Assembly (NCBI GenBank): GCA_027577595.1
Contig: JANBRJ010000081.1
Coordinates: 16,054-80,053, forward strand
DNA length: 64,000 nt
Direction: 5' to 3'
DNA from: Coemansia sp. RSA 487
Taxonomy: Eukaryota; Kickxellomycota; Kickxellomycetes; Kickxellales; Kickxellaceae
Shown: positions 39,425-55,242 of the stretch, piece after piece
Layout: every line of letters begins with the position of its first letter
Position numbering within the stretch: the first letter of the stretch is position 1
The notes under the pieces: model-generated
What the model saw: only the letters and a program-made list of their open reading frames with translations
What the model was told of the DNA's origin: nothing
Databases searched by the model: none
Position numbers and translations under genes: made by a program

Positions 39425-40471
39425 ATGCCCACCAGCAACGGCACAACACAATCCTGCGTCCTGGTCACCGGCGGCGCCGGGTTCATCGGGTCGCACACGG
39501 TCCTGGAGCTCCTGACGCAGGGCTACAAGGTGGTGGTGGTGGACAACCTGTGCAACAGCTGCGAGGAGCCGCTGCGGCGCATCGAGAAGCTGACGGGGCA
39601 GACCGAGCGCATTCCGTTCCACGCGGTGGATCTCGGAGACATCGAGGCGCTGCGCTCGGTGTTCAGGCAGCACACGATCAGCAGCGTCATCCACTTTGCG
39701 GCGCTCAAGGCGGTGGGCGAGTCCGTGCGCAAGCCCCTGGAGTACTACCGCAACAACGTGGCCGGCACGCTCAACCTGCTTGAGGTGATGATCCAGTTCG
39801 ACGTCAAGAACATTGTGTTTTCGTCGTCGGCCACGGTGTACAAGGCCGACTACGACGGCAACGCGCTGCGCGAAAGCAACGAGCTCGGATGCACCAGCCC
39901 CTATGGCCGCACCAAGCTGTACATGGAAAGCATCATCCGCGATGTGGCCGACGCCAAGGGCGGGTGGAACGCAATCATGCTCAGGTACTTCAACCCGACA
40001 GGCGCCCACGAGTCTGGCATCATGGGCGAGGACCCGCAGCAGATCCCAAACAACCTGATGCCGTACATGTCGCAGGTGGCCGTTGGCAACCTCAAGGAGC
40101 TGCACGTCTTTGGCACCGACTACAACACGCGCGACGGCACCGGCGTCCGCGACTACATCCACGTCATGGATCTTGCAGAGGCCCACGTCGTTGCGCTGAG
40201 GCGCCTCCCGGAGGCCCACGGCTACGAGGTCTTCAACGTCGGCTCCGGCTCCGGCCAGACTGTGCTTGAGATGATCGACGCCTTTTCCGAGGCCTGCGGC
40301 CGCAAGATCCCCTATGTGCTCGAGGGCCGCCGCGACGGCGACATCGACACCATCCTTTGCGACCCGACAATGGCCACGAAAGAGCTTGGCTTCAAGGTCC
40401 ATCGCGACATCAAGCAGATGTGCGTCGATCTGTGGCGCTGGCAGGAGAACAACCCTAACGGCTACAACTAG
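39425..40471 (+). CDS. GAL10: UDP-glucose 4-epimerase
   Basis: 348 residues. Interconverts UDP-glucose and UDP-galactose in the Leloir pathway and for glycan precursors. N-terminal Rossmann motif GGAGFIGSHTVLELL binds NAD. SSSATVYK supplies the catalytic Ser region and SPYGRTK the Tyr-x3-Lys. Also present: YFNPTGAHESG, NLMPYMSQVAVG and GDGTGVRDYIHVMDLA. It lacks the C-terminal mutarotase domain fused to GAL10 in budding yeast, so it is the stand-alone type. Codons are strongly GC-ending. Confidence 0.96.
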   Translation: MPTSNGTTQSCVLVTGGAGFIGSHTVLELLTQGYKVVVVDNLCNSCEEPLRRIEKLTGQTERIPFHAVDLGDIEALRSVFRQHTISSVIHFAALKAVGESVRKPLEYYRNNVAGTLNLLEVMIQFDVKNIVFSSSATVYKADYDGNALRESNELGCTSPYGRTKLYMESIIRDVADAKGGWNAIMLRYFNPTGAHESGIMGEDPQQIPNNLMPYMSQVAVGNLKELHVFGTDYNTRDGTGVRDYIHVMDLAEAHVVALRRLPEAHGYEVFNVGSGSGQTVLEMIDAFSEACGRKIPYVLEGRRDGDIDTILCDPTMATKELGFKVHRDIKQMCVDLWRWQENNPNGYN

Positions 40472-40672: not shown

Positions 40673-42445
40673 TCAGTCGTCGCTTTCGCCGGTTATCTCC
40701 TCCAGCGTCTTTCCACGGGTCTCCGGGATCCAGAAGGTGACAAAGAACCCAATCAGCGTGAACAGGGCAAAGATCTCGATCAGGTGGGGGATAAACGCAT
40801 TGGGCCCACCGCGGTCCTTGATGCTCATTAGCCCGGCCTGCGCAACAATCGCGCCCAGCTTCCCGGACGCCGCCGAGATGCCGTGCGCGGTTGATCTGAA
40901 CCGCGTCGGAAACACCTCCCCAGGCCACACAAAGCACGTGACGTTGGGGCCAAAGTTTTGGAAGAACTGCGCCAGCGTAAACAGCACGATGAACCCGACG
41001 TTCGATGCGTCGAGGATCTTGTGGTACGCAAACCCAATGACGATGTACAGCGCCGTCAGCGCGGCGAAGCCCAGCAGCTGGATCGGCTTGCGGCCCAGCC
41101 GCTCGATGGTGAACACCGTGCAAATGTACCCGGGGATCGACCCCAGCAGATTGATGATGATGTTTCCCAGGCAGTTGCGCGACAGCACGCGGTACGGATC
41201 GTCGTTCTGCACGTCGCCCGAGAACCCGATTGCGCTGATGACCACGGAGCTGTTCAGGTTGATTCCGTAGAACGCAACGTCCACCGCAAACCACGCAATC
41301 GACGTGCCCAGGAGCACCTTCAGGTTCTTCCACTGGCTGAAATACTGCCTGAATGTCTCCTGGCGCTTCTGCCGGACTGGCTGCGCCGCAGCTTTTGTCG
41401 CCTGCACTGCGTTCTCCTCTGCATTGTCACCATGCATGCTGCATGTCTCTATCGATCCAACCGGCTGCATCTCGTACACTTCGTCCATCTTGTTCATCTG
41501 CAGCGAGCTTGTCGAAGCAACCGGCTCATCTGGAGTCCGCGCTGCAGGCGTGTCGTCTGCGGCGATGAGCGCGGGCTTTGCCAGCAGCGACTCTGTCTCC
41601 GGCTCCTGCGCGGCAGCCACCAGCAGCCGTCTCTTTGCCTCCTCCTGGAAGCGAGAGGACTCGGGCATCGTCAGGCGCCAGTACAGCGACACGGCGCCGG
41701 GGATTGCGCCAAACCCTAGGCAGATGCGCCACACGTAGTCCAGCGTGTAGACGTCGTTCTCGATGGCCGACTTGAAGCAGGCAAGCACCACAATGGCCAC
41801 GATGGATGCGCTCACGTTGCCCAGCCCCTGGCACGCGAACACAGCGGCCATCATTTTGCCGCGCGTGCGCTCGTTTGCGTACTCGCTGGTGATGGTGGCT
41901 GCCAGCGGATAGTCGCCGCCGACGCCAATGCCGACCAGAACGAGCCATATGAACAGGAACACAAAGACGTTGAATCCGCGCACGGCATCATTCGAAAACG
42001 AGGCGCCCACCGTGCTGATGATCACCAGGATGGCGCCCATTGCAAAAACGCCGGTGCGCCCGAACTTGTCCCCAAGTCGGCCCAGAATCAGCTGCCCCAG
42101 AAGACACCCCGTTTGCACCGCCACCTTGACCAGCGTGCTCCATTTGGTCGGCACGACGTTTTTGCCCTCTCCCGCTGCGTCGTGGTAGTACACGTATCCC
42201 ATTATCATCACTATCACGTTGCTGATAAACATCAGGTATGCGTCTGCAAAGAACGCCGCTCCGCACACCAGAAACGACCGGATCATCTCCCAATTGGTCG
42301 TGCTCTCCTTGTTCATGGCGTCCAGCTCCTGCTGCCGCTGCATCAGCTCAAGGTCAATGTCCTCCACCGTCTGCATGTCCTTTGTTGTGCCTTCTGCACC
42401 CGCGAATGCTGCATCCGGATTTGCTTTGCGCCGCCCAAATACCAT
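40673..42445 (-). CDS. PHO84-like inorganic phosphate:H+ symporter (MFS)
   Basis: 590 residues. High-affinity phosphate importer family at the plasma membrane. Landmarks: FFADAYLMFISNVIVMIMGY, LGRLGDKFGR, the signature GVGGDYPLAATITSEYANER, and RLTMPESSRFQEEAKRR ahead of a long central loop (about residues 275-365). Second half: FLLGTSIAW-like start (KVLLGTSIAWFAVDVAFYGI), GRKPIQLLGF, CFVWPGEVFPTRFRSTAHGI and the ending WIPETRGKTLEE. Substrate is inferred from the Pho84-type signature. ATG at 42445, single exon, GC-rich codons. Confidence 0.93.
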   Translation of the reverse strand: MVFGRRKANPDAAFAGAEGTTKDMQTVEDIDLELMQRQQELDAMNKESTTNWEMIRSFLVCGAAFFADAYLMFISNVIVMIMGYVYYHDAAGEGKNVVPTKWSTLVKVAVQTGCLLGQLILGRLGDKFGRTGVFAMGAILVIISTVGASFSNDAVRGFNVFVFLFIWLVLVGIGVGGDYPLAATITSEYANERTRGKMMAAVFACQGLGNVSASIVAIVVLACFKSAIENDVYTLDYVWRICLGFGAIPGAVSLYWRLTMPESSRFQEEAKRRLLVAAAQEPETESLLAKPALIAADDTPAARTPDEPVASTSSLQMNKMDEVYEMQPVGSIETCSMHGDNAEENAVQATKAAAQPVRQKRQETFRQYFSQWKNLKVLLGTSIAWFAVDVAFYGINLNSSVVISAIGFSGDVQNDDPYRVLSRNCLGNIIINLLGSIPGYICTVFTIERLGRKPIQLLGFAALTALYIVIGFAYHKILDASNVGFIVLFTLAQFFQNFGPNVTCFVWPGEVFPTRFRSTAHGISAASGKLGAIVAQAGLMSIKDRGGPNAFIPHLIEIFALFTLIGFFVTFWIPETRGKTLEEITGESDD

Positions 42446-42858
42446 GTCTGCTTTCTATTGTCCTTGTTACTTCCTACTGATATTTTTAAAATCAAAATCG
42501 AACCAGGGAACAGCAGCGAAATAAATTATTGACGAAAGTGAACAAGAAACAGGCTACCGATAGAAAGGTGTGGGAAGGAAACTTCTTAAGTACTCAAACA
42601 TTTTCTATCCGTTGCGAACTCCACCAAAGATAAGTGGAAGTGCATGGGGAAAAAAAGCGAGTAGGAAAATCCCAACCTTCAAGAAAAAAGGAATCACAAA
42701 TGATTCTGCCAACACACTTCCCATGAAGAGATGGCAGCATAGAAAAAAAGCTATTTCCCAAGGAAATAATTACAGAAAGAAAAGTCCTTTTCCGCGCTTC
42801 TCTTTTTCTTTGCGTAGCGTTTACTTTTTTCTTCCTTTTGGTTCAACACACGCACCTC
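42446..42858. other. Spacer between PHO84-like gene and Fanzor
   Basis: AT-rich divergent spacer. No terminal inverted repeat or transposase remnant was recognised in it. Confidence 0.4.
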
Positions 42859-45096
42859 ATGGCGCGAAACGACGGGGTGTGTGTCCTGAAGGTTCCCTTG
42901 CAGGCCGTCAGTTGGCGCCGCAAGTACAGACCGCCACTTCGTAAACTGGTCAAAACAGTAAACTACAACACTCGCCATTCTTATAACTTCTCTCGCTGGA
43001 TATTCGTATACGAGCTTCACGAGGACATTGATTTCAAGCTCGACCGGTATGTCTGTGTTCCCTTTTTTAGGGAAGTGATCTTGAAGGTCAACGGTGGAAA
43101 AACCAGGGCTGTCGGCAGTGCACGGAAAAAGAAACCCAAACCCGACTCAGAAGCAAAAGGTACCAAGACCACCGAAATTGACAAGTCAGATACTACGGAG
43201 TTTCGAGCCCTTATCGCCAAGCATTGGAATATGTATGCCAAGTCATCGCATATCAAGCAGCAAAAGCAGCCGTATATGGGTCATATAGCTGGGTATGAGG
43301 CCCAGAAGATACACACTGCGTTCCTTGTATCGGTAAAAAATAATCTCGGAAACCTCCTACGCAGAGCTGTCAACATGCTCTGTAGGTCAAAAATCGAAGC
43401 ACTTGCAAAGAGGATTGAGCTTAAGGCTGCTGGTGCATCTGTCGACACTATTCGAGATACCCTAAGAGCCGAGATATGGGGGCCAGCAGACAAGGCCAAG
43501 GAGTGTGTTAAGCGAGGCAAGATCATCGAAGCTGAGCTGGATGCACACATTTATGAACGGGTCAAGGATCTCCAATCAGTACTCTACATCTACAAAAATG
43601 ATGCACCTGGTGAAAAGGGTCTCTACTATGACATCAAGTGTGACCCTATCAAGCACATCAAAACCTTCTTCCTTCTGGCTCGATTCTTCCAGCAAAACAA
43701 GTCCCACAGCTTCCAGTGCATGCCACTTCGCACACAGTGGATCCCATGCCATGTCCACATTGACAAGGCTATCCTTTGTCAGTGGTTTCTTGGTGGCATC
43801 AAGAAGGGACAGAAGCTTATGAATGACCTTTGGGGTGAGATTCTTGACATAACCTGCCGGGCGATCAAGAGTAAACAGGGTGGCAAGGCGTTTGAAGGGT
43901 CAATTCAGACGGATGGAGTGTCGGTCTCGATTTTCAAGAAGTGCAAGGCCAAGAAGAAGAACATCAATAGCACAGATCAGACCAGTGACACCAAGCTTTC
44001 TGACTCTATCAGTGCTGCCAAGCCCAAGGCACCAAAGCCCAAGAAAGGCAAAGGCAAAGACGAATTCGAGTTTGAGTATATTGAGTCAATTGACCAAGAG
44101 AAGCTATGTGCAATGGAAGGCAACGGTGTGCTGATCGACCCAGGCAGGAGGGACCTTCTGTTCTGCATGCATGAGTACAGCTCCATTGGGAATCCATGGC
44201 TATTCCGGTTTACACGCAACCACAAGGCCAAGCTGACTCGCTCTACCAAGTTCCGTAGGATCCTCGAAGCAGCCAAGAAAATGTACCCTGACAATGCCAT
44301 CATCGAGGCAGAGCAGCGTCTTGCTGAGGTTTCATGCACCACTGTCGATCCTGATGAGTTCAAGAGGTTCATTGAGGTCCAGGCTGAGGTGTGGCCCCTT
44401 CTGAGCAAGTTCTACTCCTGCACACAGACAAACAGTATAATGAACAAGAAACCTCTTCATCGGCAGCTGCGTCTGGCAGCCTATCTTAACAGCCAAAGGG
44501 CAGATCATACCCTTGCCAACCTTATCCGTGAACAGTTTGGTCCTGATCCTGTTCTGGTTCTTGGAAATTGGTCTGCTGGCATGTGCAAGTACCATGAGTC
44601 CATCCGGGGTGTAGATATGCGTAGGATGTTGAGGAAGCACGGGTTTAAAGTGTACCTGTTGGACGAATTCCGCACCTCAACTTTCTGCCCTGGCTGTTGC
44701 GAAAACAGGCTTGTGCATCCTGAAGAGCTAGTTCCAAACCCAAGACCCTATCCAAAAGAGAATAGGCGTGAGTATGTTACTTGTCATGGACTCTTAATGT
44801 GTCAAAACAAAAAATGTGTGGAGTACGTGGCAGATAACATGAAGCCTGCTAACCATCTCGGGAAAGCGCCTGTTGCTCGGTTTTGGAACAGGGATCTTGC
44901 TGCTGTATTGAATTTCAGGCATATTCTCCATAGTCTGCGCCAAACACACAAGAAGCCTGAGCGTTTTAGGCGTGGTACCACTCTTCCGCTAGCAAAGAAG
45001 CCCAAGAAACCCGTGAGAGGTGCCAAGAGGTCTGCCAGTGGCTCTGCACAGCCCAAAAAGAAGCCCCGTTCAGCGAACCCGCAGCAGCAGTATTAA
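42859..45096 (+). CDS. Fanzor-type (eukaryotic TnpB-like) RNA-guided nuclease
   Basis: 745 residues. Fanzors are eukaryotic relatives of TnpB that use a guide RNA, often encoded next to the gene, to cut DNA. RuvC-I is VLIDPGRRDLL with D427. The RuvC-II-like strand VLVLGNWSAGM has Gly569 where TnpB usually has Glu; nearby acids are E580 and E603 in LLDEFRTS, the latter matching the displaced Glu reported for Fanzors. The zinc ribbon has CPGC (C610, C613) and CQNKKC (C648, C653). RuvC-III is FWNRDLAAVLNF with D679. A Lys-rich linker precedes RuvC-I, and the C-terminus is NLS-like (KKPKKPVRGAKR). No stop or frameshift breaks it, so it could be active. Codons look less GC-ending than in the neighbouring PHO84-like gene. 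Start chosen at the ATG at 42859. Confidence 0.9.
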   Translation: MARNDGVCVLKVPLQAVSWRRKYRPPLRKLVKTVNYNTRHSYNFSRWIFVYELHEDIDFKLDRYVCVPFFREVILKVNGGKTRAVGSARKKKPKPDSEAKGTKTTEIDKSDTTEFRALIAKHWNMYAKSSHIKQQKQPYMGHIAGYEAQKIHTAFLVSVKNNLGNLLRRAVNMLCRSKIEALAKRIELKAAGASVDTIRDTLRAEIWGPADKAKECVKRGKIIEAELDAHIYERVKDLQSVLYIYKNDAPGEKGLYYDIKCDPIKHIKTFFLLARFFQQNKSHSFQCMPLRTQWIPCHVHIDKAILCQWFLGGIKKGQKLMNDLWGEILDITCRAIKSKQGGKAFEGSIQTDGVSVSIFKKCKAKKKNINSTDQTSDTKLSDSISAAKPKAPKPKKGKGKDEFEFEYIESIDQEKLCAMEGNGVLIDPGRRDLLFCMHEYSSIGNPWLFRFTRNHKAKLTRSTKFRRILEAAKKMYPDNAIIEAEQRLAEVSCTTVDPDEFKRFIEVQAEVWPLLSKFYSCTQTNSIMNKKPLHRQLRLAAYLNSQRADHTLANLIREQFGPDPVLVLGNWSAGMCKYHESIRGVDMRRMLRKHGFKVYLLDEFRTSTFCPGCCENRLVHPEELVPNPRPYPKENRREYVTCHGLLMCQNKKCVEYVADNMKPANHLGKAPVARFWNRDLAAVLNFRHILHSLRQTHKKPERFRRGTTLPLAKKPKKPVRGAKRSASGSAQPKKKPRSANPQQQY

Positions 45097-45230
45097 AAAC
45101 AACCATATTTTTCCCTGGGTGCTATTGCACTCCAACTGCCCGGAACCGTTCTGGGCAGAAACTAATGCCAGATACAAGGCTTCGGTTGCTACACGTTAGT
45201 GGTAATTGGAGGTCATTGGCAGATACTGCA
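45097..45230 (+). ncRNA. Candidate guide-RNA (omega-like) scaffold 3' of Fanzor
   Basis: TnpB and many Fanzor genes carry their guide RNA across the 3' end of the gene. Here a perfect 11-bp hairpin sits 40 bases after the stop (45136-45158), followed by an imperfect repeat of GCCAGATAC / GGCAGATAC near 45168 and 45220. Extent and function are guesses. Confidence 0.35.
45136..45158 (+). repeat. Perfect hairpin downstream of Fanzor
   Basis: CTGCCCGGAAC and GTTCTGGGCAG pair over 11 positions (one G-T wobble) around a single C. It is not a usual eukaryotic 3'-end signal, and no T run follows. Confidence 0.8.
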
Positions 45231-45502
45231 TCACATGATCGAACGAATAACGCAATTGTGCATGCCATCTCTAGCTTTTAGGAAACAAAACCTGATAGCT
45301 TTGGTGCAAAAAAGTGCAATGCAGTCAACAAAGAATGTCACACCATCCCTATCTCTATCTCTAGTTATCTGCATCTTCACAAGGCTAGTCTGGTTTGTGT
45401 GGTTTTTTTCTTGTTTTTGGTGTTGCTGTTGTACCAGGAAACTTTCTCTCCAAAAAAAAAAACTGGCCGTCAGTCGCAAAGCTCGAAAGAGAGCGACGCA
45501 TT

Positions 45503-47608
45503 ATGAGCAACTCAAGTAGCAATAACAGCAGCAGAAATTCTGCGGCTAGTGATCCGGCCCAGCTGCAGTTAGATCATGGCACATTACTACAGGAGCAAAA
45601 ACAGTACCTCGTTATGGATGCAGGCAAGGAAAAAATAAAGCGAATGATGAGCACGGGAAAGCCAAACCAGGCCATCAATGAATTCAGTGCTGAAAATGGG
45701 CTGGACATCCCCGCCGCAGAGACAATATACGACCTGCTCCACTCGCTTGGCCATACAAAATGGAGTGTCCACGAGGCCGTTCTCAAGGCGACCGTCTTGT
45801 CCGCAGAAAACCGTATCCAAAGAGAGACGCTTCCTCCAGAGCAACATACTGCGCTCCTGTCCCAAATGAAGCACTACCTTGCGATTCCTAGGCTGCAACA
45901 CCTCCCGCTTATGCTTCTTGAAAAGCACCCACGCCTGGTCCCAGACGATATTTGCCAGGATATTCTCCAAACTCCAGAACTGTACCAGAAATGCAGCGTA
46001 GTTGTCAAGCGCGAGTTATGGCGTCGTGACCGTGTGCTGTTTAACAAATACATGATGCCCTTGATCGACAGCTACGCTAAAAACAATGAGCTTCTAAACA
46101 TGTCTCAGGAGATATGCAGCTCCAATGTCAAGGCTTACTCGACGCGCCGTCGAACACACCCGGCGCTCACCCAAATCACCAGTGCCATCGACGCCGACTT
46201 GCAGCTTTATATGCAGACGCTGGGCATGGTGCGTGCTAGATTCATCGAGACAAACAACCCGATGTATGGTACATTGCGTCTCGACCTTGTAATGACCATG
46301 CACGAAAACGATGTAGCCGAAATAACCAAAACCGATGTGTGCCACGGGCTTGCGTGGTCGCTTGACGCATGCATCATGAAGCAGGTAATGGACGACCGGC
46401 GCGTGCTTGAGCTCCAAAAATACTTTGATGGTGTTGATCCGGAAAATGCGCCATATGGCGAAATTGCATTGATCCTCAGCAGCCCCTATTCACGCCATAT
46501 CCTGGCACAGTATATACTCTCCATCCTCGAGGACATTGCACCAAATGCGGAGGTCAGTACCAGATACTCGGATCTTGCTTGGCCAAGCCTTGTGTTGAGG
46601 ATTGGGCTGCTTGCACATGACTTGCTGTTGCAAGAGCACCCCAAGATCCCCGGCTTCGATCGTTCCGTGACTCGCAAGTTCTTCCGCTCGTTAATTCCTT
46701 TTATCCTAGCCGCACAAAGGCACGACCGCAAAATCGGATCTTACGAGCAACATTTGCTGAAGGGTAGCGTTGGCAAGATGGCACAACTCGATCGTACGGG
46801 CGCGTTCCCCGCCAAGGATATATTGTACAGCAAGATGAGCGACTTGCAACCGTCGGCAGAGGACGTCTCGATACTAGTGTCTAGCGAGCTTGCCCGTCAG
46901 GTGCTATATGTGTTTCTGTTGAAGCGTGTTGCAGAATTCGACATTGCCATGCTGAACATTTGGCTTCCTGCCATTAGCGAGGCCTTTAAAGCGTCGCTTG
47001 GGGTGCCAAGCAGTGCGTATGACAGCACCAATACTGATAGCTCACAGCAACCACAAATCGCGCTTGACTTGCGCCAGAATGCCTTTGAATGTGATGCGTT
47101 TATGCTAAGTCTGGTTCTGCATATCAAAGACAAAAAGGGGCTTGTTACTGCTGTTCTCAACTCGGCTATCCAAGGGCTGGATCTGGCAGGGCAAGGCATC
47201 AAGGGCGCCAACACCGACGGTGTCATTGCGCAGGCAATCGAATCTGTTCCTCTGCTGGGGCTTTTCGACCAGCAAGCGCGTGTTCGCCACTGTGCACATG
47301 AACAAGTGATTTCGTTTCTTATCGAGTGCACCAGTATACTCTCAGCAGAGTACAGCAACAACAGTGGTATGACCGATGCATCCAGTGCGCAGACACAGGT
47401 TGTGCCAGTTCACAATAAAGAAAGTGCCGTGTACTTTGCTTTTGTACTGACTGAGCACGCAGCTGCAAAGTATGCGGTCGACCCTGAACATTTTGACAAG
47501 CTAAGCAAGCTCTACCACAAACTCGCAGCCGTCTCTCCGCCTCAGGCATTCGAGTACCGCGTATCTGGTTCCAATTGCCCTAACGCATCAAAGTTCCTGA
47601 AAAGCTAA
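45503..47608 (+). CDS. NELF-B/COBRA1 homologue
   Basis: 701 residues from the ATG at 45503. NELF-B is a subunit of the negative elongation factor that holds promoter-proximal RNA polymerase II. Alignable landmarks with human NELF-B: AINEFSAENGLDIP (QFQTENGVLLP); ELYQKCSVVVKRELWRRDRV (ELYRACAVEVKRQIWQDNQA); MYGTLRLDLVMTMHENDVAE (HYCTLRAELLMSLHDLDVGE); WSLDACIMKQVMDDRRVLEL (WCLDACIRERFVDSKRAREL); and LSSPYSRHILA. Similarity spans most of the protein and is convincing. The N-terminal 40 residues are Ser/Asn-rich. NELF is absent from budding yeast, so presence here is notable. The open frame continues upstream of the ATG without another ATG. Confidence 0.88.
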   Translation: MSNSSSNNSSRNSAASDPAQLQLDHGTLLQEQKQYLVMDAGKEKIKRMMSTGKPNQAINEFSAENGLDIPAAETIYDLLHSLGHTKWSVHEAVLKATVLSAENRIQRETLPPEQHTALLSQMKHYLAIPRLQHLPLMLLEKHPRLVPDDICQDILQTPELYQKCSVVVKRELWRRDRVLFNKYMMPLIDSYAKNNELLNMSQEICSSNVKAYSTRRRTHPALTQITSAIDADLQLYMQTLGMVRARFIETNNPMYGTLRLDLVMTMHENDVAEITKTDVCHGLAWSLDACIMKQVMDDRRVLELQKYFDGVDPENAPYGEIALILSSPYSRHILAQYILSILEDIAPNAEVSTRYSDLAWPSLVLRIGLLAHDLLLQEHPKIPGFDRSVTRKFFRSLIPFILAAQRHDRKIGSYEQHLLKGSVGKMAQLDRTGAFPAKDILYSKMSDLQPSAEDVSILVSSELARQVLYVFLLKRVAEFDIAMLNIWLPAISEAFKASLGVPSSAYDSTNTDSSQQPQIALDLRQNAFECDAFMLSLVLHIKDKKGLVTAVLNSAIQGLDLAGQGIKGANTDGVIAQAIESVPLLGLFDQQARVRHCAHEQVISFLIECTSILSAEYSNNSGMTDASSAQTQVVPVHNKESAVYFAFVLTEHAAAKYAVDPEHFDKLSKLYHKLAAVSPPQAFEYRVSGSNCPNASKFLKS

Positions 47609-53043: not shown

Positions 53044-55242
53044 TTAAAGAAGGCTGGACTTTGGAACGACAATACGAAGGTAGATGTCATTCTGGATATC
53101 GGCTGTGGCGGGTGTGGGAGCAGAGGACATTGGCTTGGCCAGCGTTGGTGTCACGCTGACAACCTGAACGCTCTCTGAGCCTGCTGCCGAAATAAGGCTA
53201 GCGACATTGGGCTGGCTCTTGTGCTTGGTGAGGGTGGATAGTGGCACATAGATGGCAACATGCATGTCGTCGACCTTCTCGGTGTAGATACCGTTCGGAA
53301 CATCACTCCTCTTTGCAAGAGTATCGCTCTCATCCTTGTCGGAGTCGAAGATGTGAAGAGTGACGGTAGGTGAAGCCTGGATGGTAGCGCTGACACGGCC
53401 GAGGAGGTTGGGAACGAGACCATCGCCATCCTCATCCGGGTTGATGTTGGCAACAATGTTGACTGGAGCGACGACGCTGGCGATGACCTCGCCAAGCAAG
53501 TTGTCGAGGAAGTCGCGACGCAGAAGCTCATCGTCACCTTTCTCGGAATCGAACAAATGAGCGGTGACAGTAGGCGATACTTGGACAGTGGCGCTGACAC
53601 GGCCAAGGAGGTTAGGAACAAGGCCATTACCGTCCTCATCAGGGTTGATGTTGGCAACAATGTTGATGGGAGCAACGGCACTGGCGACGACTTCACCGAC
53701 AAGATCCTCAAGCAGATCACGGCGCAGAAGCTCGTCATCCCCGCTTTCGTCCTTGTCGGAATCGAAGATATGAAGAGTAACGGTAGGAGAAGCCTGGATG
53801 GTAGCGCTGACACGACCGAGGAGGTTGGAAACAAGGCCATCACCTTCCTCATCGGGGTTGATGTTGGCAACAATGTTGACTGGAGCAACAACACTAGCGA
53901 TAACTTCGCCAAGGAGGTTGTCAAGGAAATCGCGACGTAGGAGCTCGTCGTTGCCGCTGTCGTCCTTGTCAGAATCGAACAGATGGGCGGTGACGGTAGG
54001 CGACACCTGAACAGTGGCGCTAACACGACCAAGGAGGTTGGGAACGAGACCATCACCATCCTCATCCGGGTTGATATTAGCAACAATGTTGACCGGAGCA
54101 ACGACGCTGGCAATAACTTCGCCAAGGAGATCTTCAACAAGATCGCGACGCAAAAGTTCATCACCCCCGCTCTCATCCTTGTCAGAGTCGAATAGATGAA
54201 GAGTGACAGTAGGCGATACTTGAACAGTGGCACTGACACGGCCGAGAAGGTTGGGAACAAGACCATTACCATCCTCATCGGGGTTGATGTTGGCAACAAT
54301 GTTGACTGGAGCAACAACACTAGCGATGACTTCGCCAAGGAGATCCTCAACAAGATCGCGACGCAAAAGCCCATCATCACCGCTCTCATCCTTGTCGGAA
54401 TCGAAGATATGAAGGGTAACGGTAGGAGAAGCCTGGATGGTAGCGCTGACACGGCCGAGGAGGTTGGGAACGAGACCGTCGCCGTCCTCATCCGGGTTGA
54501 TGTTGGCAACAATGTTCACAGGAGCGACGACGCTGGCGATGACCTCGCCAAGCAAGTTGTCAAGGAACTCGCGACGCACCAGACCATCGACACCGCTGTT
54601 ATCTTCTGGGTCGCTGATACCGACATTTACGTTCACAGGAACGATAACCCTAGCAAAGACCTTTCCAAGTAGGTCGTATAGAAGTGAAGACGAGTCAAGG
54701 TCCTTTGTAGTCGCATCGGTGATCAAATCATCGCCAGTGGCACGTTTGCGCAGCGCGACATTGCTCTCGGCAACTTGCTTGGCCATATCCACGGGGAGGC
54801 GCACAAGCATGTACGATTTCCCGTCGACATTGAACATCATCGCGCCCTTTCCGTCGACAAGGTTTTCCATAGAGGATTGGTCGATGTCGCGCTTGTGGCT
54901 GACGTACGTGCGCTGGCTTGAGGTGGGTGCGGGCTCGGCGGGTGGCTGGGATGGAGCTGCAATTGCAGTCGGAGCCGCTGGTGCTGGAAGGGCCACGTAT
55001 GCCGGCGCAGGAGCTGGGGCTGACGGTGCAATTGGAGTTGGCAGCGCAGGCATCACCGACTTGGGAATGGCAGGAGAGTAGATGAAGTCGGCAATGACAA
55101 TGGGGACTGGTGTCATGAAGACCGACTGCGTGGTGGCAATCGCTGCAGGCGGTACGACGGGTGCAGAGCTAGCAACATACTGGGCATTGGCTGCGCCCAT
55201 TGCAGCGTAGGTGAGTGCGTAGATGGTGTTGGTGACCTTCAT
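53044..55242 (-). CDS. Secreted protein with six near-identical 70-aa repeats and dibasic sites
   Basis: 732 residues. A signal peptide (MKVTNTIYALTYAAMGAANA) is followed by a Pro/Ala-rich stretch. Six tandem units of about 70 residues, plus a degenerate unit before them, follow. Each reads LLGEVIASVVAPVNIVANIN, an acidic Asp-rich turn (PDEDGDGLV), NLLGRVSATVQ, FDSDKDESGD and a boundary LLRRD. The recurring RR, plus SHKRD, RKRAT and LAKRS elsewhere, are potential Kex2 cut sites, so the protein may be processed into repeated peptides. The DNA repeats are also very similar, which implies recent expansion or conversion. No known domain. Confidence 0.88.
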   Translation of the reverse strand: MKVTNTIYALTYAAMGAANAQYVASSAPVVPPAAIATTQSVFMTPVPIVIADFIYSPAIPKSVMPALPTPIAPSAPAPAPAYVALPAPAAPTAIAAPSQPPAEPAPTSSQRTYVSHKRDIDQSSMENLVDGKGAMMFNVDGKSYMLVRLPVDMAKQVAESNVALRKRATGDDLITDATTKDLDSSSLLYDLLGKVFARVIVPVNVNVGISDPEDNSGVDGLVRREFLDNLLGEVIASVVAPVNIVANINPDEDGDGLVPNLLGRVSATIQASPTVTLHIFDSDKDESGDDGLLRRDLVEDLLGEVIASVVAPVNIVANINPDEDGNGLVPNLLGRVSATVQVSPTVTLHLFDSDKDESGGDELLRRDLVEDLLGEVIASVVAPVNIVANINPDEDGDGLVPNLLGRVSATVQVSPTVTAHLFDSDKDDSGNDELLRRDFLDNLLGEVIASVVAPVNIVANINPDEEGDGLVSNLLGRVSATIQASPTVTLHIFDSDKDESGDDELLRRDLLEDLVGEVVASAVAPINIVANINPDEDGNGLVPNLLGRVSATVQVSPTVTAHLFDSEKGDDELLRRDFLDNLLGEVIASVVAPVNIVANINPDEDGDGLVPNLLGRVSATIQASPTVTLHIFDSDKDESDTLAKRSDVPNGIYTEKVDDMHVAIYVPLSTLTKHKSQPNVASLISAAGSESVQVVSVTPTLAKPMSSAPTPATADIQNDIYLRIVVPKSSLL
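53330..54600. repeat. Coding tandem repeat, unit about 213 bp
   Basis: Six units inside the secreted repeat gene, differing by scattered substitutions and one shortened boundary (GDDE variant near 53540). Probably copy-number variable. Confidence 0.85.

Follow-up and report, generated by a model that had tools for sequence, protein, structure and literature searches.

An intact Fanzor1 gene and a predicted omega-RNA scaffold on a probable decayed mobile element in Coemansia sp. RSA 487

The window, a stretch of 64,000 nucleotides on contig C81 of Coemansia sp. RSA 487, contains a Fanzor1 gene with a predicted omega-RNA scaffold and guide position directly behind it (Table 1). Translation of positions 42859-45096 (+) gave 745 codons and a stop codon without any internal stop, in agreement with a first-pass annotation of this DNA that had described an intact 745-residue frame free of internal stops and frameshifts. 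The same annotation had placed the gene between ordinary genes, and the neighbors are indeed a transporter, a COBRA1/NELF-B gene and a sugar epimerase. NELF is not known from well-studied yeasts, and the presence of COBRA1/NELF-B in this Coemansia may be worth a look. The minus-strand frame at 53044-55242 (732 aa) contains a long internal repeat (NLLGEVIASVVAPVNIVANINPDEDG...).

Table 1. Positions of the features at the locus, in window coordinates.
Feature	Position	Strand	Basis
Sugar epimerase	39425-40471	+	
MFS/sugar-type transporter, upstream neighbor	40673-42445	-	
5' leader common to other copies; left transposon end absent	42680..42858	+	
Fanzor1 coding sequence, 745 aa	42859..45096	+	uninterrupted single frame; homology to solved Fanzor1s
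TDG motif, WED domain, residues 351-353	43909..43917	+	motif meaning from PMC10711439 (excerpt)
RuvC-I DPG motif, D427 P428 G429	44137..44145	+	fingerprint per PMC10711439 (excerpt)
RuvC-II alternative catalytic glutamate E603, 6 residues upstream of the zinc ribbon	44665..44667	+	in the SpuFz1-aligned stretch
Zinc ribbon C610, C613, C648, C653	44686..44817	+	translation and family alignment
RuvC-III aspartate D679	44893..44895	+	translation and family alignment
Predicted omega-RNA scaffold, 125 nt	45097..45221	+	fold, conservation, position at right end
Predicted guide position; flanking DNA immediately beyond the element end, variable among most copies	45222..45241	+	analogy with SpuFz1
COBRA1/NELF-B gene, downstream neighbor	45503-47608	+	Pfam PF06209, E 5.8e-44

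When the protein was searched against the PDB sequences with phmmer, only two matches were found up to an E-value of 10, both of them Fanzor1 proteins: that of Parasitella parasitica (PpFz1; 9cf0, E 1.8e-93) and that of Spizellomyces punctatus (SpuFz1; 8gkh, E 5.8e-40). The alignments take in the DPG, DEFRTS, zinc ribbon and WNRD blocks. The catalytic residues of SpuFz1, D383, E541 and D606 (PMC11423790, excerpt), correspond by motif in the phmmer alignment to D427, E603 and D679 of the window protein. Scans of the protein with local copies of Pfam and NCBIfam gave no model matching at E-values up to 1; PF26935 was listed for it in the homologue search described below. A search with a RuvC-like motif pattern yielded no match and was uninformative.

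The Fanzor fingerprint has been described as the combination of DPG in RuvC-I with a glutamate that lies six residues ahead of the zinc ribbon, and TDG in the WED domain has been called characteristic of Fanzor1 (PMC10711439, excerpt). All of these are present in the window protein, and in combination with the homology to two characterized Fanzor1s they support its assignment to Fanzor1, in line with the first-pass annotation, which had put it in the TnpB/Fanzor group. In a family alignment of 30 rows, several of which are partial proteins, T351 and D352 were kept in every row and G353 in 29; likewise, D427 and G429 were kept throughout and P428 in 28. With the partial proteins included, E603 was kept in 27 of the 30 rows (two gaps, one Q), C610 in 27 (two gaps, one other residue), C613 in 28 (two gaps), C648 in 25 (four gaps, one other), C653 in 23 (five gaps, two other) and D679 in 21 (eight gaps, one N). 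The two aspartates and four cysteines therefore stand where the first-pass annotation had located them, each kept in 21-30 of the 30 rows; E603 and the TDG motif at 351-353 had been missed. D427, E603 and D679 were present in all nine own-genome copies checked (L001-L009), and one zinc cysteine was lost in L008. The basic linker and NLS-like tail claimed earlier can also be recognized by eye (KKPKKP / KKKPR).

The homologue search, in which 7999 candidates were scored, returned 43 proteins including the window's own; of the other 42, 41 were assigned by name to Coemansia and one to Martensiomyces. Relatives from Coemansia isolates are deposited at NCBI as hypothetical proteins without a name, and the product of one sister copy in the genome (L007) is identical, letter for letter, to one of them (P0002). 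One Coemansia gene model (P0005) joins a Fanzor to a long tail that by eye resembles a membrane transporter, which is probably an annotation artefact. We found none on a Fanzor in Coemansia among the papers listed; Coemansia Fanzors may already appear in the species lists of the large surveys.

The genome assembly comprises 184 contigs with a total of 17.8 Mb. A six-frame search of it, in which 60 of 208 first-look candidates were scored, identified at least 71 places that match the window Fanzor1, fragments included. Among the matches listed, the window copy (L001) and seven sisters (L002-L008) are near full-length and form subfamily A, the sisters being 83-88% identical to the window copy. 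An unbroken frame with an ATG was found in five of the eight (L001, L003, L005, L006 and L007). In L002 the frame is open and the start frame is lost, L004 has in-frame stops at codon 342 and codon 745, and the frame of L008 is split by a frameshift. A second subfamily, B, is also frequent, with members mostly ~35-45% identical, and L009 and L022 represent a third sort of Fanzor copy. The window gene belongs to a dispersed family whose many copies were probably spread by a mobile element. Given so many paralogues in the genome and the hypothetical relatives at NCBI, two points of the first-pass annotation need trimming: the gene has ordinary neighbors but is not a lone gene, and the word "new" applies to the specimen, the kind being known. 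In short, this Fanzor1 is ordinary as a kind and new as a specimen.

Two further observations were made on the other copies. On the same contig, to the left of the window, a Fanzor fragment of the other subfamily lies at the contig end (C81:1-1344, minus strand), and Fanzor matches on C41, C54, C144 and C151 likewise start in the first ten bases of their contigs, as if the assembly had been broken by repeats. The right end of L016, a member of subfamily B, lies directly before the start of a gene that by eye resembles a cyclophilin gene, at ~3976 in the orientation of L016. PpFz1 has been reported to bind cyclophilins (PMC11423790, excerpt), but this is probably a coincidence.

The window copy is probably carried by a decayed mobile element. 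In the fuller copies, the shared sequence extends ~1 kb upstream of the ATG, whereas in the window copy only ~180 nt are clearly shared (from 42680), with weak similarity possibly further out. At the left border of the fuller copies lies a repeat resembling a Tc1/mariner terminal repeat. A TA directly precedes this repeat in L003, L005, L036, L037, L038 and L039 (in L039 as read from the sequence) and at the inner repeat of L007, but not in L006, L035 or at the outer repeat of L007. An inverted partner of the repeat lies ~185 nt inside in L005, L006, L007, L035 and L039. No terminal repeat was found in the window copy with up to three mismatches allowed, and since the left shared part is missing as well, its left end has been lost, either by truncation at insertion or by later deletion. 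Without this end, the copy may not move. The first-pass annotation had called the Fanzor complete; this is true of the reading frame and of the predicted RNA scaffold, but not of the element.

Remnants of a DDE-type transposase were found in L002, L036, L037, L038 and L040; a second piece of the L002 remnant, upstream of the Fanzor, matched DDE_3 with an E-value of 1.1e-06. No intact transposase was seen among the 55 places matching a 140-residue piece from L002: 44 contained stops, and the rest were short pieces or the query itself. No remnant was found beside the window copy. The ghost-like copies L036-L039 consist of the right end attached to the left end or to a transposase remnant, and they retain no more than ~46 codons from the end of the Fanzor gene.

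On the right, the copies have a sharp end in common. The 130 nt after the stop codon were found at 20 places in the genome, and in 15 of these the similarity ends, by eye and BLAST, at ...GGAGGTCATTGGCA (...TTGGCA) or a variant of it, the borders of L012 and L034 differing in the last letters. In the window copy, this border falls at 45221, 125 nt after the stop. It lacks the outer part of the mariner-type repeat and has only seven letters in common with it. In the remaining five right ends (L007, L008, L014, L035 and L040), similarity extends beyond the border for up to ~240 nt of common sequence, which differs internally; the border is therefore not unique. The far ends of these run-on stretches differ between copies; an inverted relative of the stretch lies upstream of L009, and another match was found at C69:642-884. 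In a tree of the right ends, the run-on copies did not group, although support was low.

The 125 nt between the stop codon and the border are likely to be the omega-RNA scaffold of the window Fanzor1, by analogy with other Fanzor1 systems. The stretch folds at -46.6 kcal/mol (z -3.90), and none of 200 shuffles was as good. The predicted fold comprises a first hairpin of seven pairs with one bulge, a second of ten pairs and a long third hairpin closed by a terminal stem, whose 3' strand is the very end of the element. The omega-RNA of S. punctatus consists of a 75-nt scaffold over the right end followed by 14-15 nt of variable flank (PMC10432273, excerpt), and with the same layout the window guide would start at 45222. 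The first 20 letters of this putative guide occur once exactly in the genome, with two other sites at three mismatches.

The 3' stretch could instead be nothing but a transposon end and mRNA tail, a reading that we regard as unlikely. In its favor, compensatory changes on the alignment of the 20 right ends were not above those of shuffles: both sides had changed in 4 of 35 pairs, whereas the 500 shuffles averaged 2.2 and 85 of them were as high. Covariation therefore gives no proof of the fold; 96% of the cells in that alignment do pair, with a structure derived from those same rows. An Rfam scan around the locus returned no match. The two sister right ends that were folded gave z-scores of -2.84 (L006) and -4.47 (L003), and the terminal stem is absent from the best fold of L003. 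What speaks against a mere transposon end is the strong fold of the window copy, the last stem closing exactly at the element border, the published position of the omega-RNA in Fanzor1 (PMC10432273, excerpt), the ghost-like copies that keep the 3' stretch with nearly all of the protein gene gone, and the conservation of the stretch. Over the same 28 pairs among eight copies, its mean distance was 0.116, compared with a mean dS of 0.293. Compared with the 5' leader, it was less divergent in 20 of the 21 pairs among seven copies, all except L003-L007, and had 0-1 gap columns where the leader had 16-270. In the six pairs that include the window copy, the distances were 0.08-0.13 and 0.29-0.45, respectively. 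When four close copies were compared over a 600-nt 5' stretch, there was no clear difference in three of six pairs (0.119-0.136 vs 0.094-0.121), and the contrast is therefore clear mainly for the more distant pairs.

We also considered a scaffold common to subfamilies A and B, but the covariance model of the A scaffold found none in B. Searched against 21 sources, this model, made from the 20 subfamily-A right ends, found the window's own site, which is one of its training rows, and a 23-nt match on the opposite strand with an E-value of 0.58. The last 130 nt of L018, a subfamily-B copy, fold worse than shuffles (z +2.08), and the stretch just behind the subfamily-B gene folds moderately (z -2.60 in L018, z -1.74 in L015).

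The explanation that we consider highly probable is that the locus holds a Fanzor1 nuclease on a decayed element, which by analogy with its characterized relatives would act as an omega-RNA-guided DNA cutter. That the protein is instead an unrelated RuvC-like protein with chance motifs has next to no probability: its alignments to two solved Fanzor1s are highly significant and extend across most of its length, one of them as two consecutive blocks, and the Fanzor-specific DPG, the alternative glutamate and TDG occur all together. A different objection is that the protein is a Fanzor1 by descent and no longer a programmable nuclease, a fossil whose frame is still open by chance. The missing left transposon end would fit such a fossil, as would the state of L002, L004 and L008, with their lost start frame, in-frame stops and frameshift, but selection and residue conservation make it improbable. 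In pairwise comparisons with its seven sisters, the window copy gave dN/dS values of 0.17-0.22. On the copy's own branch, the longest tip of the subfamily tree (distances fitted to a tree with node support of 66-85 and one node at 47), dN/dS was 0.16 (bootstrap 0.11-0.23) over a dS of 0.197, which shows that the lineage was under purifying selection until recently. Because this branch includes time before insertion, dN/dS alone is not proof of retention in place. The other intact copies gave 0.17-0.29 on their branches; two of the broken copies were higher than the window copy (L004, 0.26; L008, 0.39), though the third, L002, was at 0.19. All of the catalytic and zinc residues are kept in the window copy.

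A more speculative reading takes the window gene to be a stranded Fanzor1, which has lost the left end and is retained in place by the host through selection on its intact nuclease and RNA scaffold, and not as a mobile element. The guide of such a nuclease might be fixed on its own insertion site, or the nuclease might serve the ghost RNA loci elsewhere in trans. This we consider doubtful.

If the window copy is, as we prefer, an RNA-guided nuclease, the protein would bind an omega-RNA in which the 125 nt immediately following its stop codon would serve as scaffold and ~15-20 nt of flanking chromosome would be joined to them as guide. DNA matching the guide would be cut beside a short TAM, probably A/T-rich, since the left flank of most fuller copies ends in TA and PpFz1 uses ATN (PMC11423790, excerpt). 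The natural target would be the unoccupied insertion site, and repair from the occupied copy would keep or spread the element. We infer transcription of the omega-RNA, guide length, TAM, cutting, nuclear import of the protein and benefit to the element from the Fanzor1 family.

Fanzors are eukaryotic RNA-guided nucleases of which few have been characterized, and this one comes from early-diverging fungi. A candidate RNA scaffold with defined ends, a natural series of sister copies within one genome that are intact, broken or devoid of the protein, and a protein without the large RuvC insertion of PpFz1 (see below) together make a convenient set to test what keeps a Fanzor alive after its transposon has decayed.

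The best sequence match among known systems is PpFz1 (PDB 9cf0-9cf3), to which residues 8-528 and 526-705 of the window protein were aligned in blocks that include DPGRRDLL, DEFRTS, the zinc ribbon and the WNRD block. These two blocks meet in the window protein and are ~95 residues apart in PpFz1, indicating that the ~100-residue RuvC insertion of PpFz1, FRI (PMC11423790, excerpt), is absent here. The same source gives PpFz1 an omega-RNA of 75 nt with a first hairpin of 7 bp; the first predicted hairpin of the window copy also has seven pairs, whereas the predicted scaffold measures up to 125 nt.

The family as a whole resembles the Spu-1 family of S. punctatus, described as a multi-copy Fanzor1 family whose members are ~82% identical and include partial genes as well as "ghost" loci that lack the protein and retain the RNA region (PMC10432273, excerpt), much like our sister copies and the ghost-like L036-L039. 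The two differ in their ends: according to the same source, Spu-1 has inverted repeats of ~30 nt on both sides, while the fuller Coemansia copies have a Tc1/mariner-type repeat on the left and a right border without its outer part. Mariner-type terminal repeats and transposase remnants occur here in sister copies, a resemblance to the mariner-borne Fanzor1s that have been described (Bao and Jurka 2013; PMC3627910, excerpt); no intact transposase was seen among the 55 matching places. The CRe-1/2/3 elements of Chlamydomonas are Helitron-type elements with a Fanzor1, many copies of which have target-site duplications of ~7-19 bp (PMC3627910, excerpt); none was recognized by eye in the fuller copies or the window copy. 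What the Coemansia copies do share with the CRe elements, as these are described there, is a fixed 3' end combined with variable or missing 5' ends.
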